In this document: in pieces, positions 1 through 16,255 of the stretch
Layout: every line of letters starts with the position of its first letter
Numbering within the stretch: position 1 is the first letter of the stretch
Assembly: GCA_033065855.1 (NCBI GenBank)
Contig: JAVXUO010001949.1
Span: 248,001 to 312,000 of the forward strand
Length of the DNA stretch: 64,000 nucleotides
DNA from: Escallonia rubra
Lineage: Eukaryota > Streptophyta > Magnoliopsida > Escalloniales > Escalloniaceae
Direction of reading: 5' to 3'
The notes under the pieces: model-generated
What the model saw: only the letters and a program-made list of their open reading frames with translations
What the model was told of the DNA's origin: nothing
Database searches by the model: none
Made by a program: the position numbers and the translations under genes

Positions 1-1154
1 ATTCTTTACATTTCCCCTTCCCCGTCCCCGTGGTTGTGCAATTGCGATTGATGGAGGTTGGGCATTTATTGGCGGGGCACCTAAAACCATTTCTACCTTA
101 TGGTTTTTTAATCCGTGCCTGTGAGCTTTTGTTGGAGGCGTTGGACATGGTGTGGTCGTGGGTTCGTTGTTCGTGGTTGTGTCTTGTGGTTGCGAGTTTC
201 GCCAGTTATCGTGGGATGCAGTGATGGGGTCAGATGTCGCAGCGGTGGCGGGTTGGCAGGCACTGTGGTGGCTGATGGTCGTCGTTGGTGGGTCGCGAAC
301 GATTGTCGAAGGTTATTGGATGATGGGTTTTGGGATTCGTGGCGGTTAATGGTCATGGGTGGTCGTGAGTAGGACGATTTATCGGTGGTGGGTCGTTGCT
401 GGGCAGTATGGTGGACTTGGTGGTCGTGGGTGGTCACGGGTGGGTCTGTTGGGTTCGCTAGATGGTGTTGCCGGTGTAGGCTTGGTAGTAGGGAAAATGG
501 GTGATGTCGGCGAGGTCGCCGCGCGGTGGTGGCTACGGCACGGTGGTCGCCGCTGTTGTGTCGTGGTGTACACTGTAGGTGACGCCGGAGTCCATCGCCG
601 GAGAAGAAGCAGGCAGAGGAGAAGAAGCCCACCGTCGTCGAGAAGGCCCCCGCCGAGAAGAAGCCCAAGGCCGGCAAGAAGCTCCCCAAGGAGGCCGGCT
701 CCGCCGCTGCCGGAGACAAAAAGAAGAAGAAGTCCAAGAAGTCCGTCGAGACCTACAAGATCTACATCTTAAAGGTCTTGAAGCAGGTCCACCCGGACAT
801 AGGGATCTCAAGCAAGGCCATGGGGATAATGAACAGCTTCATCAACGACATCTTCGAGAAGCTGGCCCAGGAGTCTTCCAGGCTCGCCATGTACACCCAG
901 AAGCCCACCATCACCTCCCTCGAGATCCAGACCGCTGTTAGAGATTTTTCAAGAAGGGATGGCAGTTTGGGGATGAAAAATCGAAAAAGTAAGGTGTCAG
1001 AGAATTTTTAGAAGGAGTTAGGGTCTCCGTCAATTTTGTGGGGCTCCGTAAAATGCGGGTACAAACCTGGGGGAGCAGAGTGTAATTTTCAAAAGATAGG
1101 GGGGTCCGTGTGTAATTTAGGGTAAACCTCAGGGGTGCCCTGAGTAATTAACCC
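1..1154 (+). mobile_element. MULE-like TIR element, right part only
   Basis: The right end reads, inverted, GGGTTAATTACTCAGGGCAC, followed by CTGAGGTTTACCC. This is the same terminal style as the 17517-18886 element (GGGTAAATT... with a 9-bp target duplication). The left end lies before the window, so no target duplication can be checked. The interior is G+C-rich and GT-skewed over 1-560, with no recognisable protein, then a histone H2B fragment (583-942) and about 210 bp of terminal sequence. Assignment as a gene-capturing MULE (Pack-MULE type) is inference from the related terminus; the terminal sequence itself is seen. Confidence 0.55.
583..942 (+). pseudogene. Histone H2B fragment captured in a transposon
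   Basis: The frame starting at 583 reads as plant histone H2B from the lysine-rich tail ([17 protein letters not shown]) through the histone fold ([15 protein letters not shown], then [17 protein letters not shown]) to [12 protein letters not shown] at 942. H2B pairs with H2A in the nucleosome core. The copy cannot make a normal H2B. An in-frame TGA at 580 lies just upstream and there is no initiator Met, so the first ~15 residues are missing. After TAVR the frame runs into about 22 unrelated codons and a stop near 1011, so the last ~30 residues (the LVLPGELAKHAVSEGTK region) are gone. Several substitutions from the family consensus are visible, for example F to L in IYIFKVLK. It lies next to the right terminus of a MULE-like element, which suggests capture. 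Confidence 0.85.
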
Positions 1155-1631
1155 TATTAATAACTCATGTGCTGATATTTTTATTAATAAAACTCACCTA
1201 GAACAGTATAAAAAGTTTTGCAACATAAGAGAAAATACATTATGAGAGATTAATTATATGTATATACAAACATATATGTACATATACATTTTATTAAAGG
1301 AAAAGGAGGGAGATTAATTTTGTTAGATTGTGAAAACATATTAGACTTGTGTAAAATATAGGAAAGTTTCAAGATTTAAATGAGATATTTATTATAATAA
1401 GATATAAATTTAAAATTGAGAGAGAAAGAGAGATTTGTTTTTAAATGGGACATGCTGACGTGAAGAGAGAGAAAAGTGAAATTTATTGATTGGTTGAATA
1501 CCAAATGGCATAAAAAGAGGCATGCCAAGTAGGAAAGATAATGTTACATTCTCTCAGTTTCGGTTTTCATATATATATATATATATATATATAGGGGGCG
1601 GATCCCCACCTACTAGTGGGTAATATCCACC
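1155..1631. other. AT-rich spacer with (TA)n
   Basis: AT-rich sequence with no credible coding frame. It ends in a (TA)n microsatellite at about 1570-1592, then a GGGGGCGGATCC stretch leading into the giant MULE terminus. Some of 1593-1631 may belong to the outermost MULE end, because the opposite terminus is damaged and the exact boundary is unclear. Confidence 0.6.
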
Positions 1632-2040
1632 AAACCGCAACAATTTGTTGCGGTTTGACAATCATCATTTTTTGTGCCCCACCCCCACCCCCCAACCTTT
1701 TTGTTTCTTTTTCCGTGGCCCCCCACCCCCTTCCCTTTTTTCTTTCTTTTCTTTCTTCTTTGTGGCCCCACCCCCTCCCCAAACCGCAACAAAAAGTTGC
1801 GGTTCTCCTTTTTTTTCTTTTTTCCATGGGCCCCCACCCCCTTCCCTTTTTTCTTTCTTTTCGGCCCCACTTTTCACTCCGGCCCCACCCTCCCCAAACC
1901 GCAACTTCTTGTTGCGGTTCACCTTTTCGTGGCCCCACCTCCCTTTTCCCACCCCCACCCCCCGATTCCCGTGGCCCCCACCCCCACCCCCCGATTCCCG
2001 TGGGCCCCCACCCCCGAACCGCAATTCCTTGTTGCGATTC
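1632..2040. repeat. Four spaced AACCGCAA-n-TTGCGGTT palindromes
   Basis: Palindromes lie at 1632-1656, 1781-1804, 1896-1919 and 2016-2040. Each is AACCGCAA, about 5-7 bases, then TTGCGGTT (the last is degenerate, TTGCGATT). Centre spacings are about 149, 115 and 120 bp. Matching palindromes occur in the right arm at 12412-12436, 12485-12509 and 12606-12630, with a half copy at 15325-15335. Binding of the transposase to them is inference. Confidence 0.85.
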
Positions 2041-2570
2041 TCTGGTTCTTTTTTTTGTTTTCGGCCATCTTTTTTCTTTCTTCACAGCCTTTGACTCTGC
2101 CATCTTTTTTCTTTTTTCACAGCCTTTGACTAACTACTGCTCACTCACTGACGTAATTTTTCTTTGTCTTCTTTCTTCTCTCTTCCTCACTTTTCTCTCT
2201 TTAAAATCCCTTCTCCTCGAACCCTTTCTTCCACTCTCTTCATTCTCCATATCTCACCTACATAATCTCCACAACAATACAAAAAAAAATTTCACTCTAG
2301 AAGATCGGTGGATAACCACTAGAAGATCGGTGAATTTTTCTTCAAATATATCAAGTTAAAACAAGTAAGTATTTTGAATTTTCTTATAATTCAATGTTAA
2401 TTTCAAATTGTTCTTACCAATTGATTGTTTAAATTGTGTTACGCTTAAATTGTTCTTACCATAGTCTAAAATTCGTGTTTAGGGCGTCAAAATTACCGTT
2501 TTACAAATCGGGGTATTACATTCGAAAGATTCTAAAAAAGCGCTTTTTTAAGGCGTCAAAATTAGAATTT

Positions 2571-3722
2571 TCACGAATTTATAAAAAATAGCTAGAGATA
2601 TATTTTGCCAAAGTGCAAAAAAAAGACCCTAGTTATTTTTAAAATATCTGTATCAGGTAAACATTTCAAATTTTTCCAAAGACTAGAAAGGGGTTAGCTG
2701 ATACGCGCAACCTTGTAACTTTGCAGTGTAATTTAAAATATCAAGCTAGCGCGATTTCGCGCAAAACTTTTATGAGAACCCTAGGATGTTGGGAAGTTCC
2801 ATTTCCCAGGAATTCGGGCCATTCTGAAGCCGTTACCTATTTTTTTGGCCGAACGGGCTTTTAAGCGCTCAATCCGGACACCGGTTTGGGATTTTAGGGC
2901 GAAACTTTTATAAAATACTTTTTAGATCCAGAATGAATTCAGGAAGCTTAAAATAGCATTTTAAACCACTGTTGAGATTTTATAAAGCCCCCCCCCCCCC
3001 TCCCATTTTGGTAATTTGCGACCCTAGGAGGGGTATTTTGGTAATTTTTTCGGTAAAGTTTTTCAACGGACTTTTTAGTCCCGAAATGTAAGTAAAACAC
3101 CTGAAATGTTGTTTTGAAGCTGATTGCGGGGCGTAATTGTCGGTAAATGTGAAAACTTAATTAGACAGTTTTTCACGAATTTATAAAACATAGCTAGAGA
3201 TAGATTTTGCCAAAGTGCAAACAAGAGACCCTAGTTATTTTTAAAAGATATGTATCAGGACAAAATTTCAGATTTTTCCAAATACTGGAAAGGGGTTAAC
3301 TAATACGCGCAACCTTGTAACTTTGCAGTGTAATTTAAAATATCAAGCTAGAGTGATTTCGCGCGAAACTTTTATGAGAACCCTAGGATGTTGGGAATTT
3401 CCATTTCCCAGGAATTCGGGCCATTCCGAAGCCGTTATCTATTTTTTTGGCCGAATGGCTTTTAAGCGCTCGATCCGGACACCGGTTCGGGATTTTTAGG
3501 GCGAAACTTTTGTAAAATACTTTTTAGATCAAGAATGAATTCAAGAAGTTTAAAATAGCATTTTAAATCACTTTTGAGATTTTTTGAAGCCAGGAGGCAT
3601 TTTGGTAATTTGCCACCCCGAGAGGGGTATTTTGGTAATTTTCCCGGCAAAGTTTTTCAAAGGACTTGTTAGTCCAGAAATGTAATTACAACACCTGAAA
3701 TGTTGTTTTGAAGCTGATTGCG
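2571..3722. repeat. 602-bp tandem duplication inside the left TIR
   Basis: TCACGAATTTATAAAA...TAGCTAGAGATA begins at 2571 and again at 3173, a period of about 602 bp. The two copies share most landmarks, including CCCTAGGATGTTGGGAA and the CCGGACACCGGTT block. The right arm of the element has a single copy (around 11200-11680), so the duplication happened in the left arm only. Confidence 0.8.
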
Positions 3723-4243
3723 GGGCATTAGGGTGATAATGAATCACCAGGGGCATTTCGGTAATTTGTCGCTTAGCGGGGGTATTTTGGTAATTTAACA
3801 TTGTAAAATTTTCCGACTTACTTTTAGTTCGGGAAAGGGTGTAAGACACCCGGAAAGTTATTTTAAAGAATGAATTCAGGAAGCTTAAAATCCCGTTTCA
3901 AAGCACTTTTGAGATTTTCTGATGGCAAAGGGCATTTTGGTAATTTGCCGCCCCGAGAGGGGTATTTTGTAATTTTACGGTGTTAAATTTTTCAAAGGAC
4001 TTCTTAGTCCAGAAATGTAAATAAAGCACCTGAAAGGTTGTTTTAAGCTGATTTGGGGTGTTATGGTGATAATGAACCCCTGGGGGCATTTCGGTAATTT
4101 GCCGCTCATCGGGGGCTATTTTGGTAATTTTACATTACACAAATTTTCTGAATGACTTTTAAATAATTTTTATTCTTCTTTTATTTAATTCTATGACTTG
4201 TTGAAAATGATATAATTTTTATTTTTTAGATTTCAGTATAAAT

Positions 4244-6578
4244 ATGGATGCAACTGGAGGAAATAATTTTTGTGAAGATTCTGATCCACCTTACTAGGGT
4301 CAAGTTTTTCAAAGATTGGACGAAATTGAAGCATACTATAGAGCATATTCGAAAACGATAGGTTTCGGTATTAGAATTAAGACGACTAGAAAACGGCGAA
4401 TGCAGATCAAATTTGTGGAAGACTATTTGAGTGTCATAGAGGAGCACCGCATGTACCCCTGGTTGTTCGGATCAGTGACGAAGGGCCATCAAGACAAAGA
4501 AAACGGGACACATTTCTGGGTACCGGCTGCAAGGCCCATGTGTATGCAGTACAACGGAAAAATGAAAACCATTGGGTTGTGACGGGAGTGGATTTGAGCC
4601 ATAATCATCAGTTGATGACCTTTAGTAAGATTGGTCAAATTCATCAGCACCAACAAATAGGCGTGGTACACAGGGAACTGATATTTACAATGGCCGAGGC
4701 TAAAATTCCACCTTCTAAAATGATGGGATTTCTCTCAAGCCAGGCTGGGGGGATTGACAAGCTGAGTTTCAACGCAGTTGACCTTCAAAATGAACTTTGT
4801 GTTCAAAGGAGAGAGTCTTTCGGTAAGAGTGATTCTCAAGCTACACTTGATATCTTCAGGAGCCTTCAGAGTGAGAATTCGGGCTTTTTCTACAGTCTCC
4901 GACTAGATGATGAGAACCACATTAGTACTATATTTTGGGCGGATGCCCGTTCTAGAGCTGCTTACCAAAATTTTGGGGATGTTGTGACGTTTGACATCAC
5001 ATACCGCACAAATAAGTACTCTATGCCTTTTTCTCCGTTCACCGGGGTGAACCACCACTATCAGTCAATCTTGTTTGGCTTTGCCCTGCTTAGGGATGAG
5101 ACGGAGAAGTCATTTACGTGGTTATTTGAAACGTGGCTTAAAGCAATGTATCATATTCCTCCAAAGACCATCATCACCGACCAAGATCTGGCAATGAAAA
5201 ATGCAATCGCTAAGGTCCTGCCAGATACTCACCATGGCCTGTGCACATGGCACATAAGCAACAAATATCCCGAACGGCTTCACAATGTATATGCCTACTA
5301 TCCGACATTCAAGACTGACTTTAATACATGTGTGAAGAAATCGTTGACGGTAGACGTGTTCGAGGAGAGGTGGGCCAAGTTAATGGATGACTACTCTTTG
5401 TACAATCATGAATGGTTACAATCGTTGTATGAGATCAAGACACAGTGGGTCGGTGCCTACACGAAGAAGTTTTTTGCAGCCGGAATGACTACGACCTCGA
5501 GAAGCGAAGCTATGAATTCATTCTTTGATGGGTACGTAGGCCATTCTTCTAGTATAACAGAGTTCGTACTAGAGATGCAGAAAGCCCTTGACAGGCAATT
5601 TTTCCTTGAGAGAGAAGCCGACGCGGCTACAGTTGTAAGAGAAAGAGCCATAGTAGTTTTTTCACCTTTGGAGGCTCATGCGGCTCAAGTCTATACCAAG
5701 GAAATGTTTAGACAGTTTCAAGAGGAATTACTAAAGTCGAATCAATATAGCATGACAAAGTTGCACGAGTATTCCACCAGGGACCTCAAGGTTTATGCTT
5801 TGACAAATGTGACGAATTTCTCCAATCTGTGCTCTTCATCGGCTCTGAGGAACAAAAGACATTTTACCGTAGCAGTTTGTATGGACACCGGGTTTGTTAA
5901 TTGCAACTGTCAACTGTTTGAGCATAAAGGTATACTCTGTCGACACGCTTTGAGGTATTTTATGAGCATAAAGGTATACTCTGTCGACACGCTTTGAGGT
6001 ATTTTAGCGCCAAGAATGCTCGTGAAATCCCTCCAGAGTATATCTTGGATCGGTGGACGAAGGATACCAATAGAGTCCACAGTCACATTCCTTATGTGCC
6101 CAATGTTTCAGTTGATTTCGAGCAATCTGAGACGCTGCGATATAATCACCTTTGTAACATCATGCACGGTTTATCATTGGATGCAGCGTCAACATATGAT
6201 GGGTACAGGTATCAAGTTGAAGCAGCCGCACGGGATAAGGCTAAGCATGCACAGTTTAGGATGGCATTACCAGAAAGACAGGACCCTCGGACGACTCCAG
6301 CCGGTAGATTCAATCGAGCTTCACAGCCAGTCACTGACAGCACTAGCCTGCAACGTGAGGAGGATGACTTTTTTGATCCAATTATTTCTCAAACAAAAGG
6401 GCGAAAATGAGCAATACGTATGAAGAATCCGATTAAAGAAGCAACGGGTCAAAAAAAATTGCGAAGGTGTGCGTTGTGTAATAAGATGACTGATCATGAC
6501 AAGAGAAATCATTATAAAGTGCTAGGTATCGAACCTGGCAGTATGGTCGAGGAGGACGATGATGAGGAAGAGTGTTAG
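4244..6578 (+). pseudogene. FAR1-type MULE transposase, broken
   Basis: The protein would contain an N-terminal FAR1 DNA-binding domain (GFGIRIKTTRK ... TGCKAHVYAV ... LSHNHQL), a MULE transposase domain (FDITYRTN, ITDQDLAMKNAI, CTWHISNKYPERL) and a SWIM zinc finger (CNCQLFEHKG then CRHAL). It ends in a basic, cysteine-bearing tail (LRRCALCNKMTDHDKRN). It would cut and join element ends in the nucleus. The best start is ATG 4244, in frame with the FAR1 part. Lesions seen: in-frame TAG at 4295; a frame change between about 4400 and 4450; a 44-bp tandem duplication at 5920-6007 that shifts frame inside the SWIM finger; and in-frame TGA at 6408, after which the same frame continues to a stop at 6576. 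The repaired length would be about 760 codons, usual for FAR1/FRS-like MULE transposases. An intron rather than a frameshift near 4400-4450 cannot be excluded. Confidence 0.88.
5920..6007 (+). repeat. 44-bp tandem duplication in transposase
   Basis: GAGCATAAAGGTATACTCTG...GAGGTATTTTA starts at 5920 and is repeated exactly at 5964. The period of 44 is not a multiple of three, so the second copy moves the downstream SWIM finger and C-terminus into another frame. Removing one copy joins LCRHALRYF to SAKNAREIPPEY in one frame. Confidence 0.95.
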
Positions 6579-6660
6579 GGTTAATGTTTCAGTTGTATAA
6601 ATTGAACTTTTATAATGTTTATATTTGTGATTTGGTTTGTGGATTACTGATATTTTTTTA

Positions 6661-7777
6661 AGGGCCTATTCGGGCACACTTTAGCGCCCAATGCGTAGCT
6701 TGCGAGAAATGTTGTAATTTTTTTTGTCATTTTTTTCCCTCGTTGCACCTCAGGCACGCTAGTTAGCTCATTTCTATGAATTTCGGTAAAAAACGAGACA
6801 AATTATTTTTTGAGGTTTCCCTATTAAGGGCCTATTCGGGCACACTTTAGCGCCCAATGCGTAGCTTGCGAGAAATGTTGTAATTTTTTTTGTCACTTTT
6901 TTTTCGCTCGTTGCACCTCAGGCACGCTAGTTAGCTCATTTCTATGAATTTCGGTGAAAAACGAGACAAATTAATTTTTGAGGTTTCCCTATGAAGGGCC
7001 TATTCGGGCACACTTTAGCGCTAAATGCGTAGCTTGCTAGAAATGTTGTAATTTTTTTTTGTCACTTTTTTTTTCGCTCGTTGTACCTCAGGCACGCTAA
7101 TTAGCTCATTTTTATGAATTTCCGTGAAAAACGAGACAAATTATTTTTTGAGGTTTCCCTGTGAAGGGCCTATTCGGGCACACTTTAGCGCCCAATGCGT
7201 AGCTTGCGAGAAATGTTGTAATTTTTTTTGTCACTTTTTTTTGCTCGTTGCATCTCAGGCACGTTAGTTAGCTCATTTTTATGAATTTCGGTAAAAAACG
7301 AGACAAATTATATTTTGAGGTTTCCCTTTGAAGGGCCTATTCAGGCACACTTTAGCGCCCAATGCGTAGCTTGCGAGAAATGTTGTAATTTTTTTGTTAC
7401 TTTTTTTTTGTTCGTTGCACCTCACGCACGCTAGTTAGCTCATTTCTATAAATTTCGGTAAAAAACGAGACAAATTATTTTTTGAGGTTTCCCTATGAAG
7501 GGCCTATTCGGGCATACTTTAGCGCCCAATGCGTAGCTTGTGAGAAATGTTGTAATTTTTTGTCACTTTTTTTTGCTCGTTGCATCTCAGGCACGCTAGT
7601 TAGCTCATTTCTATGAATTTCGATGAAAAACGAGACACGTAATTTTTTTGGATTTTTCTATGAAAGGTCTATTCGCGCACACTTTAGCGCCAAATTCATA
7701 ACTTGCGAAAAATTATGTACATTTCTTTTTTGTGCAGTGGTCTTTGCTCATTGCACCTTAGCCACGCTAGTTAGGAT
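6661..7777. repeat. ~167-bp tandem array between convergent genes
   Basis: Units begin AGGGCCTATTCGGGCACACT at about 6661, 6827, 6995, 7165, 7332, 7499 and, degenerate and partial, 7665. Periods are 166-170 bp, giving about 6.7 copies. Each unit carries TTTAGCGCCCAATGCGTAGC and a T-rich tract followed by GCTCGTTGCACCTCAGGCAC. Copies are similar but not identical. The array fills the space between the 3' ends of the transposase and the PMD-Ulp1 gene, so it may contain both 3' ends or polyadenylation regions (inference). Confidence 0.92.
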
Positions 7778-10552
7778 AATGGTTATGATAATGGTAATGA
7801 AGGCGTCTAGCTTCATTCTTTTTCAGCTCCCAGGCTATCCTATACCTAAACGTCAAGGCATCCTTCCTAGTCCACGACGTATATTTGAGCACCTCCGAGC
7901 GAGCAATGTAGTCCATGTACTTGAGGACGTAAATCCCGCAATCGTTACTGTTATATTGCTTTGGTCGGTCCTTTATCATCACGACCGTCCAAGGCTCCCC
8001 CGAATAATCTTCGCACGCTAGCGAGAGGACAGTAGTCTGTATCCAACAATAAAAAAGGTCATCAAGCCTATGTACCAAGAAGAATATACTATGAGCCAAG
8101 GTCAAAAAATAAAAACTAACCACTAAAATGATGTACTCGCTGTACATCTGTGCCAACAGCTGTCCAGGATCGTCCTCCCTTAGGCTATCGTATATGTGAA
8201 CCGTTCTGTTCGCTGGATGGAGAACTAATAGGAACCAGTGGTTTGCATGATGACAAGGTATCATGATAAAGTTCGCATGAGTAGCGTGACATTGATAGTC
8301 TGAGTTCAACATGCCTAACACGTTTCCAGCTGGTTTCCACTTACCCCTGTCTGCCCCTCGCCTCCTCCATTCTGTGAATTCCCTCACCGTTAATTCCACA
8401 AAATAAGTGGGATACATGTTAAGCCTCAAATATTCAGAACGGTTAAACTGTAGCTCTCTAATCCGGAGCAGATCTATATAAGCGTTCATGACAAAATTTG
8501 AAATATCTGTCTCCGGCGCTAACGTTCTCATATCCTCATGACCTAGGAATGTCGCAAGAGGAAAGTCTGTTGAATCGACATATCTCATGCCCGAAGTAAT
8601 GCCGATCGATACAACCCCGCTTGTCCTGCCTCAATGGCTTCGTCGCTTGTCCTTTGTGCGACCGGATGCTTGGGCGCGAGGCTTGGATTCCTACTTGGGT
8701 CACCTGACTCTGGAGCTGAGAGTCATACGCGTCAGGAGGCAAGCGACTATACGGCTCCCAGAATTCCCTCTGCGGCAAAGACGCGTCAGAAGGCAAGCGA
8801 CTAGACGGCTCCCCCACTGACTCTGGGGCTGAGAGTTGTACGCGTCAGGAAGCAAGCGACTAGACGGCTCCCTTTGGTAACCCCGGTACGCAACACTGAA
8901 GTTGTGAAGATCAATCTTGTATCTCTCAATGGACCTCTTGAGACTGACAGGAGCCTGCGCGACAAACCAGTCAAACGACTCCAGCTGCTTGAACACCTCA
9001 GTGCCCTGGTCAACCTAAAAAACATGCATAGAAAAACCACCGTCATCATTTCAGGCATTGTCGATAAGGTGCACAAATAAATATTGAAACAACACTAGGG
9101 TGACTTACAATGTTCAATGCCCAGAACTGGTCATAGAACTCACGTGGCGCATACGATGTCTTCGTCGGCTGGGAAGGGCGATTCACCCTCGTGCGCGTCA
9201 CCTTGAGAAACCATTGCAGGTACTCCTCAAGACTGGTGCCGTCGTGCTTGAGCGATACAAGGCTACCATACGTTTCTTGCCAAGTATTCCACTGTTCCAC
9301 CTCGTCGCTCAACAAATTCAAGGCATCAGGCACCTCGAATTTCGGCTCTCGAACACTCATGTATGGCCGTATGTCTACAGGGGATTTTGGTATCCCTTGT
9401 AGACAGCCAGCTTGCCTCATAGCTTGATCGGGCATCTGAAACTCACATACTTCGAAGTGAATAAGCGGCACCCGAACCAAACCTTCCAGCACGTACGATA
9501 CCGGAAGTTGCCAACACCACTCATCTAACCGATGCATCACCTTGCCATATGGCTGCCACGTCACCTGGGGTGCATCCAACATATCTAGTTCCCCCCGATA
9601 GAACTGTAGATGGTGGTGAGGGTTTACCCGTCTCTTTCGGTTGGTCTCCGGCCCCCAGGCCCACACCCTAGGCCACGTCTCATTGGAATATTCTCGCGGT
9701 TGTGGACAACCCGTGGGTAGCCTCTCGTAAGACCAAGCCTGTGAATGCAAACATTATATGGAATTAGTAATTAATCACGAATATTTTGACACGTCAAAAC
9801 AAGAATATAAATGCTCATACCTGTAATAGAGTCAGGCATGCGGCAATAGACTTGGCATCCAATCTCGTAGCCTTATGCAGTGCTCGATATAGGTGCGCAA
9901 GAACAGCTGAACCCAACGAATACGAGTATACCTCCTCAAGATCCTCCAAGAACACCATATACTTCGGATGCACCATGTTTTTCGAATGCGTCGGAAGTAA
10001 TATAGCTCCAATAATATACAGAAGGAATGCCTTCGTATACGTCACGAAATCATGATGAGTGTATTCATCCGGTAGCTCGCCGTACTGCTCTCTCAGCCAT
10101 TTAAGTTTGATGACGTTTGATGTAAGAGCTTCCTTCGGAATTCCCAGAAAATACTGCCTAGCCATATTCTTTATGGATGCAAACGTTTTGCTCAAAGCAA
10201 TGGGTCTGCCGTGACATGGGATTCCAAGTATAAATCCGACGTCCTCTAATGTAATCGTCATTTCACCAAACCGGAAGTGAAATGAGTTCGTCTCGCTCCT
10301 CCATCGTTCAACTAGAGCGGATATAAGGCAATAATCGTATCGAGACCAAATCCCGCAATCAGCGAACGTAGATAAATGTTGACGGTGTAATAGTTGTATT
10401 TGTTCCTCGTTCAGTACCCACTCTTCGAGGTGACTTGTGCTTTGAATTGTTTTCAAAACACCCCTATCGACACCGTCAAATACGTACCTCGCGATGTGGT
10501 CATCATCATCGTATAGGATTGATGTATCTTGAGGTCCGGGGTTGAAATACAT
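7767..10552 (-). pseudogene. Plant mobile domain + Ulp1-type (C48) protease gene
   Basis: Spliced gene on the minus strand. Exon 1 (10552-9821) and exon 2 (9738-9109) encode a plant mobile domain as in MAIN/MAIL1: LVERWRSETNSFHFRFGEM, TLEDVGFILGIPCHGRP, then the W-rich part with HRLDEWCWQLPVS. Donors CAG|GTATGAG and ATT|GTAAGT and acceptors TTCACAG and TTTTAG are visible. Exon 3 starts at about 9025 (VDQGTEVFKQLESFDWF). The Ulp1-like peptidase occupies about 8590-7767, with its last intron at 8120-8037. Catalytic residues are all present: H of NHWFLLVLHP, D of IYDS, Q of KQYNSNDCG and C of DCG. Such proteases remove SUMO or similar modifiers, but the substrate is unknown here. Two frame breaks separate the domains: one at a G run near 8810 beside short repeats, and one near 8590 (HYFG to MRYVDSTD). 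So either it is a pseudogene or the Ulp1 part starts separately at ATG 8588. It lies convergent to the transposase inside the MULE and is likely cargo. Confidence 0.8.
8706..8873 (-). repeat. Short direct repeats in PMD-Ulp1 linker
   Basis: Three copies of ACGCGTCAGGAGGCAAGCGA-like sequence (starting about 8728, 8782 and 8840) and two of TGACTCTGGRGCTGAGAGT (8706 and 8818, 112 bp apart). They encode repeated EPSSRLLPDAYNSQPQSQ-type segments. The frame break near 8810 lies in a G run between copies, so replication slippage in this tract is a likely cause. Confidence 0.8.
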
Positions 10553-10754
10553 ATCTCTAAGAACAAAATATAATCGTAAACCAACTTAGCGTCCATAATA
10601 TTTGCATTCCAAAAATATAACTGGATCTTAAACCTAGCTTACCAACGCGTTAGCAATAGTCATTATTTCATTATTTCAATGTATTAAAACAATTCCTCAC
10701 TTCCCACCACTCCGAACGCTGAATTACTCTACTTTCCTAAAATTTAGAGCCAAC
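10553..10754. other. Upstream region of PMD-Ulp1 gene
   Basis: AT-rich 200 bp between the ATG of the minus-strand gene and the inner edge of the right TIR. It should contain the gene's 5' leader. No definite TATA box or start site can be assigned. Confidence 0.4.
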
Positions 10755-12675
10755 GTGGCAATTTACCAATATACCCCCCGATGGCCGCTACACCACCAAC
10801 ACCACAAAACCGCTTTAAAACCACTTTTTAAATGTATTACGTCAATTATATACCAAATATTTCCTCAGGGTATTTTAAGGGGGAAAGTTACCAAAACACC
10901 CCCAACTTATGCAAAATACCCCCTGACAGCCATCGCACCAACAAACATCTCAGAACAACTGGAAAAAATAACTTTCCGGGTGTCTTACACCCTTTCCCGA
11001 ACTAAAAGTAAGTCGGAAAATTTTACAATGTTAAATTACCAAAATACCCCCACTAAGCGACAAATTACCGAAATACCCCCAATGATTCATTATCACCCTA
11101 ACGCCCCGCAATCAGCTTCAAAACAACATTTCAAGTGTTGTAATTACATTTTTAGACTAACAAGTCCTTTGAAAAACTTTGCCGGAAAAATTACCAAAAC
11201 ACCCCTCTCGGGGTGGCAAATTACCAAAATGCCCCTGGCTCTCAAAAGTGATTTAAAATGCTATTTTAAGCTTCCTGAATTCATTCTTGATCTAAAAAGT
11301 ATTTTACAAAAGTTTCGCCCAAAAATCCCGAACCGGTGTCCGGATCGAGCGCTTAAAAGCCCGTTCGGCCAAACAAATAGGTAACGGCTTCGGAATGGCC
11401 CGAATTCCTGGAAAATAGAACTTCCCAACATTCTAGGGTTCTCATAAAAGTTTCGCGCGAAATCACGCTAGCTTGATATTTTAAATTACACTACAAAGTT
11501 ACAAGATTGCGCGTATCAGTTTACCCCTTTCTAGTCTTTGGAAAAATCTGAAAGTTTTCCCTGATACAGATCTTTTAAAAATAACTAGGGTCTCTGTTTT
11601 GCACTTTGGCAAAATCTAGCTCTAGATATTTTTTTTAAATTCGTGAAAAACTGTCTAATTAAGTTTTCACCTTTAGCGACAATTACGTTTCGTATTCACA
11701 TTAAACACACATAACCCAAAAGCTAGTTCAATCCATAATTTTAAACTCTAAAAAACACGAATTTGAGATTATGGTAAGAACAATGTAAGCATAACACAAT
11801 TTAAACAATCTACTGATAAGAACAATTATGGTAAGAACAATTTGAAATTAACAATGAATTATAAGAAAATTCGAAATACTTACTTATTTTAAACTTAAAT
11901 TATTTTAATCTTCTAGCGGTTATCCACCGATTTTTTACCGTAGAATATTTTTGTTTATGTTATCGTGAAGATTATGCAGATAATCTTTGGAGTATGAAGA
12001 AGATGGAAGAAAGAGTTGGGAAAGATGATGTAGAGTGAAAGAGAGGGTTCTGTCTAGAAAGAATTTGGGAGAACGGATTATAAAGAGAGAAAAGTGAGGG
12101 AAAGAGAAGAAAGAAGACCCGTGAGTCTGAACATCATAGACTCACGGGTTTTCTTTCTCTCTTTCTCTATTCGTGGGGGGCAAGTAGGGAGAAGCGAAGT
12201 GTCGTGCTGGGGGCCAACTTTTATGGGGAGAAGCCAAGTGTCGTGGGGGGGGGGGCTGTTGCTGGGAGGGGGTGCAAAGTGTTGTTGGGGGTGGGGGACA
12301 CGAAGAAAAAAGTGGAAGGCCACGCACAAGGAAACAACAAGGTACACGCAAAAGAAAACAACAAGAAAGGAAAACAAAAAAGGAATCGGGGGTGGGGGGG
12401 CCACAAACAGAGAACCGCAACAAGGAGTTGCGGTTCGGGGGTTGGGGTGGGGGTGGGAAAAGGGAGGTGGGGCCACGGAAAGGTGAACCGCAACAAGAAG
12501 TTGCGGTTTGGGGAGGGTGGGGCCGGGGTGAAAAGTGGGGTCGAAAAGAAAGAAAAAAGGGAAGGGGGTGGGGGTGGGGGCCCATGGAAAAAAGAAAAAA
12601 AAGGAGAACCGCAACTTCTTGTTGCGGTTTGGGGAGGGGGTGGGGCCACAAAGAAAAAAGAAAAGAAAGAAAAAA
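10755..12675. repeat. Right terminal inverted repeat of the giant MULE (inner part)
   Basis: Inverted match to 2040-4150: AACTTTCCGGGTGTCTTAC, CACTTTGGCAAAATCTAGC and the CCGAACCGGTGTCCGGATCG block all have inverted partners in the left arm. It includes the poly-G/C outer part with three AACCGCAA palindromes (12412-12630). The arm is interrupted at 12676 by another MULE and continues at 15204-15335. Open frames such as 10755-11384 are repeat sequence, not genes. Confidence 0.8.
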
Positions 12676-15203
12676 GGGTAATTAGCTAATGACCCCCTGT
12701 ACTTTACGGGATGTGCGATTTGTCCCCCTCCACTTCAAACTTAAGCACTAAACCCCCTCACAGTTACGAAAATTGGGCACCTTGGACGAATCCGTTACAA
12801 ATAGCGTGAAATAGCCAAAATACCCTTGTTTCCTTACTTTATTTAAGTTTAATACCATTTTTTTAACTCCTTTCTCTTCCCTCTTCCAACTCCTATCTCT
12901 TCCCACCACCACACACACCCACACACAATGTTCCCTCCCTCCCAACCACTGCACACACACAAAAACACACTCAGCACACACACATGCACACAGAACACAC
13001 ATACAAACGCAAACATACACACAAACACCCCTAAACCCATACACAAGCACGAACCCACAAACACACACACACACACACACACTCCACGAACACCCAACAC
13101 ACACAGTCAACACACGTTCAGGAAAAAGAAAAAAAAACAACAACACACATATAGTATTCACCTTTAGCGGCACTTTTGTATTTGACATTTAAAATCATAA
13201 AATTTAGTTCACATGGAATACATAAGAGATGATGTATTGCACAAAGAAATTATTGTAGAATTTAATTTTAAAGTTATAAAACAAAGTAAACATTTTCATG
13301 GGTTTAAAGGCTCCAAAGAATTTGTTATATGTCTGAACTTGCAGAAAATATAATAAATACATACGATATCAGCAAAATATGAAATTTTCACAGAAATTAA
13401 AATATTTCACCAAGAATCATCCTGTAAATTTTCAGAATTTTTGGACAAGTGTACAGTACCCAACAGCCACGTGGTACAACTGTACAAGCACAGTGTACCA
13501 CTCTACTGCACAGACCCACTACTGTTCATCTGTCTTCTTCTTCCTCTTTATACTTCACGGTTCATTGTTTAACCACACAGAACACACCACTCCTACTACC
13601 TCATCACTAACTCACCACACACTACACAAGTACACACACTTATGCACTAATTTCACCTATAATTACACACTATATACACACATATCACACCCACATACAT
13701 AGCAGTAGCAGCAGGCTGTCCTACCCCCATTTTGCATCCCACGAACACACTTCTCACACACATTCACGGCACACTCAAACACACACTGCCACACAACCAT
13801 GGCTGCCCAAACTCACCCCTCATGGTTGCACACACTCACAGTTATACATCATTAATCCAACCCATTTCTAAGCACTCAAGCCACTGCCGTCACTCTCTCT
13901 CTCTTTCCTTCTTCCTTTTTCATTCACCACTTTACCTTATACCCACATATATGATCACACACATATATATCCAACACTCACGTTTGCAGGTTGCACCATG
14001 GCAGCCTATTGCACCTCTCATAAGTTCAACCATCACATAAACACATACATTGCCACTCATAGAACTCACGCACCAGAGCAACAACCCACGCAACCGCACT
14101 CTCTTACCCAGCTGCCTTCACAGCAAGCTGCCCATGCACCCAAATCCCCCTCTTCTTTTGCGCAGCTATAGCTGTTATGAAAAATCACTCCACAAGGTGC
14201 AAAACAGCCCCTTATCTCTGGTTTCTTCCCAAATCCATATCCATTCATGCCGTTGGTGTCTTAAATATTGTTCATGGCACTCATGTAAGTCCTGACCTTA
14301 TCATGACGAACATTGTTTGTTTGAAATATTGGGTCTAGTTGGTGTACTTAATGGTTGGTTCGGCTGATATGTCGTATTTAACACAAACCTAACACGTAAT
14401 TCTTCAAAGTAATTAGAGGTATTGATGGAATACGGGTCAAGTGGAACGTGAACTTGTGTTTTGCACCCAAATAGTCTTCTTTTTCATTGGCCGTCCTTTT
14501 CACCTGGAAGGAGCCAAGCAGGATCCCTGTTTGGCTTCTGTTCGTCCCTTTGACACTCTATTAGCTGTGGGACTTCTGTATCAGGGTTGCACCCACTTGG
14601 CAATTTCAGTAATACTTGTCACCTTATGGTTTATCAAAATATCTATACCTAATTTCCTTCGGAAAATAAAGCTTAAGACAACACCAAACACACACAGTCA
14701 AAACACGTGCAGAATTGTGTGAGTATGTGCACTGTGTGTATGCCTGTCTGTGTGTGGGTACGTTGGTGGGTCTGTACGAAGTTGTGTACGTGTGTGCACA
14801 GTGGGGTGATGGGTATGGCAGATTTGTGGGTGTGTATAGAGAGTTAGAAGGAAAGGGGAGAGGGGGTGGCTTTATGCTGGGTGGAAGTGTGCGTGCAGAG
14901 TTTGGGAGGAAGGGACTAGGGGGCTGGGCTGATGGGTGGGGGGTTTACGTGTGTGCAAGGAGGGTTGGGGGAACTTACGTGGGGACTGGGGAGTCAAGAC
15001 AAAGGGGAAAAGGGGCAAAATTGTCATTTTCTTAAAAAAAAGTTAGCCAACGCATTTGTTGACCACGCGCTATTAAAGTTAACGATTTCTGCTAAAGGTG
15101 CTCAATTTTCGTAACTGTGAGGGGGTTTAGTGCTTAAGTTTGAAGTAGAGGGGGACAAATCGCACATCGCGTAGAGTACAGGGGGTCATTAGCTAATTAC
15201 CCC
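12676..15203. mobile_element. 2.5-kb MULE-like element nested in the right TIR
   Basis: TIRs of about 100 bp: the left starts GGGTAATTAGCTAATGACCC and the right is its inverted partner ending GGGTCATTAGCTAATTACCC. The shared block continues through the 'gtgcgatttgtcccc' and 'cacagttacgaaaattgggc' stretches. Flanks on both sides are AAGAAAAAA, consistent with a 9-bp duplication in purine-rich sequence, although low complexity makes it uncertain. Rejoining the flanks restores the G-rich repeat of the giant MULE arm. The interior is CA-rich near the left (12900-13130) and GT-rich near the right (14705-15000). A near-identical phrase (AACACACACAGTCAACACAC) occurs in direct orientation at 13095 and about 14688. 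No transposase is seen: non-autonomous. Confidence 0.8.
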
Positions 15204-15335
15204 AAGAAAAAAGGGAAGGGGGTGGGGGTGGGGGGCCACGGAAAAAAGAAACAAAAAGGTTGGGGGTGGGGGTGGGGGTGGTGGGGGTGGTGGGGGTGGT
15301 GGGGCACAAAAAATAATGATTGTCAAACCGCAACA
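15204..15335. repeat. Outer remainder of the giant MULE right TIR
   Basis: G-rich sequence that includes several GGGGGTGGGGGTGG runs, then GGGGCACAAAAAATAATGAT and TGTCAAACCGCAACA. This is the inverted partner of 1643-1690. The match ends in the middle of the outermost palindrome. Confidence 0.8.
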
Positions 15336-16255
15336 TTTATTTTTTATCTATGGTTATTCATAACACAATTGTATAATGAAATCTATTCAAGTAGTCACAC
15401 TGCTCTGTATGCAACGCATGGGTCAAAGCTAGTTAAACTAATCATATGCATATTAGTTGTATTTCTTTGTCCTAGTTATAATTCTTTGTCCTACATTGGG
15501 TAAAACTTGTACTAGTGCCATACAACATAGTTTGTATTCAATACTTGTACTCTGTCTTGTTATTTGATCTCTCATTTTTTATTTAATGTTATATTTCAGT
15601 AATACTGAGAGATTAACGACAAAGGTAGTGCTTAAATTGTACCATTTGGAACTCAAATATATGTTGACATAGTAATCATAATCTTAAGTGGGGTTTTATG
15701 TATACTTCTTGTAACTGTTAAATAATTTTGACAATTTGTTTTTGTTTTAATAAAATTCAACAAATGTTGATGATTAAGATTTTTGGTACGCAGATATGCC
15801 ATATTGTGTAACCACAACGGGAATGAAGTGAAAACTTATGAATTGTATTTGGAAATGATTGGGAAACGAGATCCTTTCCAATTAGTATAGTTTGTAATGA
15901 TTAGTGACGACTTGTTGGTCAAATGACTAAAGACTCAGCAACCAAATGGGAAGCAAAGGATGAAGATATATGGGATCAATGTTATCCTACATAATTAAGT
16001 AGGGGAAAGCAAAAGTAAACTATTTGATGCCAAAAAAGTTAGTTTGCAGTAGACATGAAGGTGCCACAATGAATACAATACCAGTTAGATGCCAAGTATG
16101 ATGATGCGGGACAATGCAAGGATGGAGTTAGGGCAGAGACTAAGGGCTTCCCAGACAGAGCTTGTGGAGTGGCAATGCTCCAAGGGCGATGGCAATGGGT
16201 GAGTACACGATGACAATCGCAGTCCAATGCTTAGGTCTAGAGTCAAGGTCCAGTG
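15336..16255. other. AT-rich unassigned region
   Basis: No coding frame of credible composition, no long inverted or direct repeats that I can see, and no RNA gene recognised. Confidence 0.4.

Follow-up and report, generated by a model that had tools for sequence, protein, structure and literature searches.

The transposon protein VANC of Arabidopsis, which binds motifs arrayed in tandem repeats of noncoding DNA, is a well-characterized example of silencing being reversed by the product of an element (PMC5735166). VANC bears DUF1985 and its variable regions often contain tandem peptide motifs, the transposase is more conserved than VANC, and some VANDAL-type elements carry Ulp1 (PMC5735166, PMC13317346); one review doubts that SUMO is the substrate of the Kaonashi proteases (PMC6117577). 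ULP1-carrying Mutator-like elements (MULEs) and CACTA elements were described in grapevine, melon, rice, and Arabidopsis (PMC2528002). For the plant mobile domain (PMD), a published table lists 'PMD', a term not spelled out there, in MULEs of several plant groups and often in antisense (PMC6446971), a fusion of PMD-C with the transposase was reported from grasses and Amborella (Ikeda 2017), and a use of the MULE-borne PMD against silencing was already suggested (PMC5418596). In the same table, the FAR1-bearing Jittery group of plants has a single ORF and lacks PMD, and the listed terminal inverted repeats (TIRs) reach 640 bp (PMC6446971); AutoMuTAnT, a TA-targeting element of 4.9 kb with a Jittery-like transposase, has a single ORF (PMC4486113). 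MULEs carrying PMD, MULEs carrying ULP, and the notion of anti-silencing have all been published before. No FAR1-type MULE with a separate, facing PMD-C48 gene was found in the parts of this literature available to us.

The element studied here is a decayed copy of a two-gene MULE family in Escallonia rubra, located in a stretch of 64,000 nucleotides (GCA_033065855.1, contig JAVXUO010001949.1, 248,001–312,000 of the forward strand; hereafter the window, whose own numbering is used). Its left terminus had been placed at 1632 by a first-pass annotation of the sequence, but it lies at 1594, where the motif GGGGGCGGATCCCCACC (1594–1610, + strand) begins: 27 of the 30 genome matches that began within 35 bases of the query start did so at query base 1 or 5, base 5 being 1594 (counted by eye), and the motif or a variant opened most termini read in other copies. 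Immediately outside lies a (TA)n microsatellite (1570–1593; unstranded, as are the array, palindromes and nested insertion below), assigned as the target site from the (TA)-rich repeats at termini elsewhere. The left arm (1594–4115, +) contains internal tandem units, and the right arm consists of an inner part (10965–12675, −) and an outer remnant (15204–15335, −) that ends in the terminal palindrome. Since 1646–4115 pairs with 10965–12678 plus 15207–15335, the arms measure approximately 2.5 kb on the left and 1.85 kb on the right with the insertion left out. No terminus motif was found beyond 15335 and the right end stops within the terminal palindrome, indicating that the window copy is truncated. 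The two parts of the right arm are separated by a nested MULE-like insertion (12676–15203) with arms of 108 nt that are 96% complementary, ends asymmetric by one base, and a 9-bp duplication, AAGAAAAAA, at 12667–12675 and 15204–15212 (read by eye); two of its ORFs, compared with Pfam, matched no family.

The transposase gene (4244–6410, +), delimited from Pfam matches, ORFs, and tandem-repeat analysis, is a pseudogene in this copy. Pfam matches to FAR1, MULE, and SWIM at 4298–6410 (+) bore out the FAR1/SWIM transposase already proposed for the element, and the MULE transposase domain (PF10551) was matched with an E value of 1.2e-31 in the window and 1.5e-31 at locus L058 of a second, divergent family. 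Both families have the FAR1 N-terminus and SWIM C-terminus of FAR1/Jittery-type transposases, and TIRs, a feature of the MULE superfamily, were present in the window and in other copies. Three defects break the window frame: an in-frame TAG (4295–4297), a tandem duplication of 44 bp (5919–6006), and a frame change within the FAR1 half.

Across a tandem array with a period of 167 and 6.6 copies (6660–7774) lies the facing gene, whose Pfam matches on the − strand corroborated the spliced PMD gene with a C48 domain, convergent with the transposase, that was read from the sequence at first. Its first PMD exon (PMD1; 9815–10585, −) holds a frame of 256 aa with a weak DUF1985 match, and the second PMD frame (PMD2; 9046–9753, −) has its exon end near 9112, followed by a likely intron, as judged from Pfam and copy comparison. 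Between PMD and C48 is a linker with a repeat of period 54 (8704–8872, −; 2.9 copies in the window copy); the linkers of 14 of 22 loci hold a repeat whose period is divisible by 3. The Peptidase_C48 domain (7767–8630, −), defined by Pfam and by alignment with other copies and with SENP2, includes a likely intron at approximately 8037–8123 that is open in the window copy. It aligned with SENP2 at His, Asp, Gln, and Cys, the His-Asp stretch being weak, and we take these four residues to be the active-site set of C48 (ULP/SENP) proteases. Where covered, they were unchanged in 21 of 24 rows, the exceptions being L005 (Cys), L013 (Gln), and L024 (His); the L026 row stops short of Gln and Cys.

The DUF1985 similarity of the window PMD scored 19.9 bits against a Pfam cut-off of 35.1, and three other copies reached 30.6–31.8, also below the cut-off; the best single copy tested gave 1.7e-7. 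A genome search, in which 150 of 1019 candidates were scored, returned 145 DUF1985 matches, of which 16 reached the cut-off (4 alone and 12 with neighbours). Three of the four loci reaching it alone were the PMD exon of the window's family, and the best match, L060, had none of this family's genes within the 3.4 kb examined. DUF287, a domain present in VANC, was not matched in the proteins scanned from the window copy and other copies. The first PMD exon was also modelled with AlphaFold2 from 8 rows, but the model had a mean pLDDT of 36 and was discarded.

Facing PMD/C48 matches were present at all 20 of the best transposase matches (window included) and at 8 of 10 further transposase loci lacking a listed partner, the other two having no facing gene in the stretch read. 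Conversely, 7 of 8 loci picked by C48 score alone had a facing transposase, and both genes were found at at least 55 of 81 scored matches by any list or reading. These proportions (20/20, 8/10, and 7/8) ruled out an accidental association, and with many further copies in the genome the pairing is hardly due to chance. An accidental association would have left transposases without PMD-Ulp1 and PMD-Ulp1 genes mostly outside such elements; instead, the PMD-C48 loci examined mostly adjoin such a transposase. The layout was also kept at three loci of the second family (L001, L004, and L006; C48 pieces 74–75% identical), at only 30–38% cargo identity and 46–52% transposase identity to the window's family. 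In a multiplied relative of this second family the PMD and C48 exons are kept and open, PMD2 and C48 neighbours are co-stranded in 35 of 35 cases with a spacing of 1.06–1.24 kb, and many PMD2 copies with open frames share one identical score. Because the pairing is shared with a family whose transposase is only 46–52% identical, the term 'cargo', used at first for the PMD-protease gene, is unsupported in the sense of a captured gene.

Purifying selection was visible on the PMD: median omega fell from 0.51 to 0.36 in PMD2 and went from 0.51 to 0.44 in PMD1, compared with 0.51 to 0.25 in the transposase and with 0.85–1.09 in the wrong-frame control, which stems from a dN/dS run including intron codons, unlike the omegas reported here. 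For C48, omega was 0.54–0.68 against a wrong-frame control of only 0.75, so that constraint on this domain was weakly shown. The PMD-C48 protein diverges faster than the transposase, and stops occurred in 15 of 23 PMD2, 6 of 23 PMD1, and 7 of 24 C48 stretches. Stops in that many copies, together with the frequency of captured gene fragments in MULEs (PMC2528002), would fit a gene that is carried along and does nothing for the element, but we consider this highly improbable, as the pair was kept between families at 46–52% transposase identity with its reading frame and active-site residues, and the multiplied group has open PMD and C48 exons. The persistence of the pairing across divergent copies suggests that PMD-C48 benefits the element, perhaps by acting against its silencing by the host.

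The palindromes are candidate target sites for such a protein. A sequence scan placed AACCGCAAC-N5-GTTGCGGTT closest to the terminus at 1633–1655, with further copies at 1782–1804 and 1897–1919, a degenerate fourth at 2017, and three in the right arm at 12413, 12486, and 12607 (12413–12629). This palindrome occurred 1116 times genome-wide and that of the second family 4554 times, with zero for either reversed control; the two differ but have CCGC(A/T)AC in common. No palindromes were found in L014 and L017–L028, stretches that may fall short of the outer TIR, nor, in the loci scanned, inside the period-167 array that separates the facing genes in the window's family, and palindrome clusters lay near a gene match in only 9 of 22 cases among the matches listed, the lists being partial. 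At termini read elsewhere, (TA)-rich repeats were at or within 7 bases in 10 of 11 cases, L039 lying in (AC)n. The relatives anticipated by the first-pass annotation were largely found: many copies have both genes, and TIR-internal repeats occur on both sides in C1015 and C270 as in the window, but the 9-bp duplications expected around them could not be demonstrated, since the termini sit at (TA)n repeats; no clear target duplication of the 8–11 bp characteristic of MULEs was seen in the two elements with both ends read, both at (TA)-rich repeats.

The transposase and its facing PMD-linker-C48 gene travel together between the long inverted repeats. We give about even chances to PMD-C48 being an anti-silencing protein that the element encodes, comparable to VANC and KIU and acting with DNA targeting and modifier cleavage. 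Recruitment to element DNA, plausibly at the family-specific CCGC(A/T)AC palindromes, would fall to the PMD, possibly together with the repeat-bearing linker; there the C48 domain may cut SUMO or a similar modifier off silencing proteins, and this would permit production of the transposase. The action on SUMO-marked silencing proteins, suggested from the outset, is an inference, and the doubt about the related Kaonashi proteases (PMC6117577) speaks against it.

The palindromes could equally be transposase sites. In the window they lie within the TIRs, close to the termini, and this position and the tight pairing of both genes would suit a transposition accessory, acting in target choice at (TA)n or in transposase control while the FAR1/SWIM transposase binds the palindromes. 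We regard such a role as somewhat unlikely, because the TA-targeting AutoMuTAnT is described with a single ORF (PMC4486113), so that a second protein is unnecessary for TA targeting, and because second-family palindromes also lie between the two genes. PMD-C48 might instead compete generally with host PMD (MAIN/MAIL1) silencing complexes without binding element DNA: transposons are silenced by host PMD proteins (PMC5418596, PMC7156037), and transposon-made PMD proteins were proposed as counter-silencers (PMC5418596, PMC8616336). This seems distinctly unlikely to us, as it leaves the family-specific palindromes and the variable linker repeats unexplained.

An extension of the targeted anti-silencing reading, which we hold to be rather unlikely, is that PMD and DUF1985 represent one ancient anti-silencing domain; PMD-C48 would co-evolve with CCGC(A/T)AC-type palindromes and strip SUMO from silencing factors there, forming a second sequence-specific anti-silencing lineage beside VANC. 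The MAIN/MAIL silencing proteins of the host would then be relatives fighting for the opposing side. If true, this second lineage would have a protease domain, would be conserved between divergent families, in one of which it has multiplied, and would offer countable candidate target sites, making transposon-encoded undoing of silencing testable outside VANC and Arabidopsis. It would also be relevant to the question why host silencing proteins and transposons both contain the plant mobile domain.

Compared with the known systems, the E. rubra element resembles the ULP1-carrying MULEs and CACTAs in having a C48 gene inside the element, which in those elements lies in either direction to the transposase and opposite to it in Kaonashi, but the available text on them mentions no PMD (PMC2528002). 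It shares termini at (TA)n with the TA-microsatellite-targeting MULEs MuTAnT, SaTar, TAFT, and Micron, whereas AutoMuTAnT and the others are without a PMD or C48 gene in the descriptions available (PMC4486113, PMC5907723). A PMD within a MULE is shared with the PMD-carrying MULEs (Ikeda 2017; PMC6446971, table), but unlike the PMD-transposase fusions it is located here in a separate, facing gene. The VANDAL elements of Arabidopsis with VANC or Kaonashi (KIU) genes are likewise MULEs with an extra gene. Unlike these, the E. rubra element has a FAR1-type transposase, long TIRs, and palindromic motifs, and its second gene has PMD as its main match, with DUF1985 only weak and DUF287 not found. Parallels of PMD-C48 to VANC and KIU are that it weakly resembles DUF1985, has repeats in its linker, diverges faster than the transposase does, and is accompanied by family-specific palindromes; with KIU it also shares the Ulp1 (C48) domain.

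Positions 1594–15335 of the window were occupied by a single MULE carrying a nested insertion. A transposase gene with FAR1, MULE and SWIM domains (4298–6410, forward strand; Pfam) faced a reverse-strand gene in which Pfam recognized PMD, in two frames (PMD1 and PMD2), and Peptidase_C48 (C48); a tandem array (period 167, 6.6 copies; 6660–7774) lay between the two. The inverted-repeat arms paired 1646–4115 with 10965–12678 and 15207–15335. The left terminus (GGGGGCGGATCCCCACC) was placed at 1594, 38 bases further out than the start proposed in the first-pass annotation, and the right end was cut within the terminal palindrome. The nested MULE-like insertion (12676–15203) had 108-nt arms and, by eye, a 9-bp duplication (AAGAAAAAA); two of its ORFs matched no Pfam family. 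The transposase of this copy is a pseudogene: it has a TAG at 4295–4297, its reading frame changes within the FAR1 half, and 44 bp of its SWIM region are perfectly duplicated in tandem (5919–6006). Its PMD and C48 frames were open; the linker joining them passes through more than one frame, and the PMD-C48 gene is therefore not claimed to be intact. A core-histone ORF (583–1008; Pfam Histone, H2B-like by eye) was located directly upstream of the element.

The pairing of the two genes recurred throughout the genome (566 Mb, 3222 contigs). The transposase query returned 3983 first-look candidates, of which 81 were scored (58 without a stop in the matched part, by eye), and the first PMD exon 4364, of which 148 were scored. 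When up to 10 kb was examined around the best 20 transposase hits, including the window, facing C48 and PMD matches were present at all 20, with L015 lacking a PMD2 match. Of 43 scored transposase hits with no listed partner, 10 were examined over 3.5 kb downstream: eight had the facing gene, one (L051) had a PMD exon on the transposase strand, and one (L053) had no PMD/C48 gene within that distance. By any list or examined stretch, the facing gene thus accompanied at least 55 of the 81 scored hits, the other 26 including L051, L053, C2657 (same-strand PMD listed) and hits whose flanks lay outside the examined stretches. Selection in the reverse direction gave the same picture, and the association of PMD-protease and transposase proposed at first pass was borne out: a search for the C48 family gave eight loci, seven of which had a facing transposase (L002, L003, L005 and L007 directly; L001, L004 and L006 via the neighboring stretches L057–L059); in the eighth, L008, a fragment of a transposase shared the strand of the C48 match. 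No PMD match was found in the stretch examined at L003. Two places, C1015 and C270, were flanked on both sides by inner-TIR repeats.

Three of the C48-selected loci (L001, L004, and L006) were distant from the window gene, with 35–38% identity in PMD2 and 30–32% in C48, and their facing transposases were 46–52% identical to that of the window; FAR1, MULE and SWIM were all recognized by Pfam in L058. Because their C48 pieces were 74–75% identical among themselves, these loci were treated as one second family. The layout common to both families indicates that the pairing is older than their split. A relative of L006 has evidently multiplied, since about 80 of 150 scored PMD2 copies had open frames and one identical bit score (by eye), which hints at equal sequence without proving it. 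A C48 exon lay 1.06–1.24 kb downstream of 35 PMD2 places, on the same strand in 35/35; these pairs, from lists of 150 scored each, belong only partly to the multiplied kind and concern the exons alone. A PMD group with 468-aa frames (e.g., C85:82273–83415), in which 44 of 112 scored PMD candidates had one score (by eye) and PMD2 was about 80% identical to L006, points to a recent burst within that second family.

Each family also had its own palindrome. An unguided count (9-bp arms, 3–7 bp spacers) over window positions 1–16000 and the loci examined gave two abundant palindromes: one, AACCGCAAC, belonged to the window's family and the other, GTCCGCTACA, to the second. Genome-wide, AACCGCAAC-N5-GTTGCGGTT occurred 1116 times and GTCCGCTACA-N3-TGTAGCGGAC 4554 times, with zero occurrences of either pattern read backwards; the latter was often clustered among the sites listed, its tie to the second family resting on the loci examined. 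At least nine of 22 clusters of the AACCGCAAC kind (first 50 listed sites) lay within 12 kb of a listed gene hit, zones that make up 1.1% of the genome. No palindromes were found in the examined stretches of L014 and L017–L028. The left terminal 467 bases showed strong single-stranded DNA folding (z −6.3), as expected of any palindrome-rich sequence. At 10 of 11 termini examined, (TA)-rich repeats lay at or within 7 bases of the end, the other (L039) being in (AC)n; at C2135, known from its termini alone, both ends, 11.0 kb apart, were at such repeats. TA-targeting MULEs have already been described (PMC4486113; PMC5907723). At C2552:65267–67374, TIR ends occurred in both orientations about 2.1 kb apart, possibly a non-autonomous derivative.

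Divergence along the element was uneven. Relative to the window copy, L018–L026 and L028 had a dS of 0.33–0.55 in C48, vs. 0.05–0.10 in the transposase and 0.04–0.11 in PMD1. In L025 and L018, identity fell across about 6990–8790, which takes in the array, C48 and some of the linker, with better conserved flanks. This mosaic looks like cassette exchange between lineages or homogenization of the flanks.

Median pairwise omega (up to 24 loci, introns excluded) fell with rising distance from 0.505 through 0.319 to 0.251 in the transposase, from 0.514 to 0.438 in PMD1 and from 0.514 through 0.447 to 0.361 in PMD2; the C48 values were 0.656, 0.682, and 0.542. Compared with the wrong-frame control, introns included (0.99, 0.85, 1.09, and, for C48, 0.75), these values show clear purifying constraint on PMD and transposase and weak constraint on C48. 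Stop-free stretches were found in 19/24 (transposase), 17/23 (PMD1), 8/23 (PMD2), and 17/24 (C48) loci. Among the 20 transposase-selected loci, all four aligned parts were stop-free in L010, L025 and the window copy (L009), whose transposase lesions fall outside the aligned part. For C48, the active site is better evidence than omega: His, Asp, Gln, and Cys, which we take to be the active-site residues, aligned with SENP2 (1tgz), the His-Asp stretch scoring low. Where covered, they were unchanged in 21 of 24 rows (exceptions L005, L013, and L024), and L001, L004 and L006 had the same four residues in frames that also contain stops.

Several components of this architecture have been published separately. 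PMD fused to a MULE transposase, captured twice, has been reported with a proposed anti-silencing use (PMC5418596), ULP is known from MULEs and CACTAs (PMC2528002; PMC6117577), and genic PMD fused to protease domains has been mentioned (PMC7156037). Four full-length, stop-free PMD matches in a row at C922:1278226–1296817 are possibly host-type PMD genes. The table of PMC6446971 lists 'PMD', often antisense, in several plant MULE groups, gives the plant Jittery group with FAR1 one ORF and no PMD, and includes TIR lengths of up to 640 bp, whereas the FAR1-type MULE described here has a second, facing gene and its arms are each roughly 2 kb long. As far as our searches show, the combination of a FAR1-type MULE, a facing PMD-linker-C48 gene and such arms is new within the literature searched.

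The closest comparison is with VANC, an anti-silencing MULE protein of Arabidopsis described as having DUF1985 and DUF287, variable regions often with tandem peptide motifs, binding to short motifs that lie in arrays within noncoding tandem repeats, and lower conservation than its transposase (PMC5735166). The DUF1985 model matched 145 places in the genome (150 scored of 1019 candidates), 16 of which reached the cut-off, four of these alone; of four loci returned, three were the PMD1 exon of the two-gene MULE family and the best was another gene. The PMD-C48 linker bore repeats of varying number in many copies, including that of the window, mostly of 60 bp and with a period divisible by 3 in 14/22 loci. 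Together with weak DUF1985 similarity and family-specific palindromes, these repeats resemble VANC, as does the faster divergence of the PMD-C48 gene than of the transposase between the two families. Unlike VANC, the transposase is of another class, DUF1985 is weak in the window copy, and DUF287 was not found in the proteins scanned from two-gene MULE copies; the gene was therefore not filed as VANC. KIU (Kaonashi) relatives that bear Ulp1 have been described (PMC13317346), and SUMO has reportedly been considered an unlikely substrate for Kaonashi proteases (PMC6117577). Given the parallels with VANC and KIU and the family-specific palindromes, our preferred reading, held with about even confidence, is that PMD-C48 may be an anti-silencing gene of the VANC/KIU type, whose product would bind DNA, act as a protease and affect silencing.
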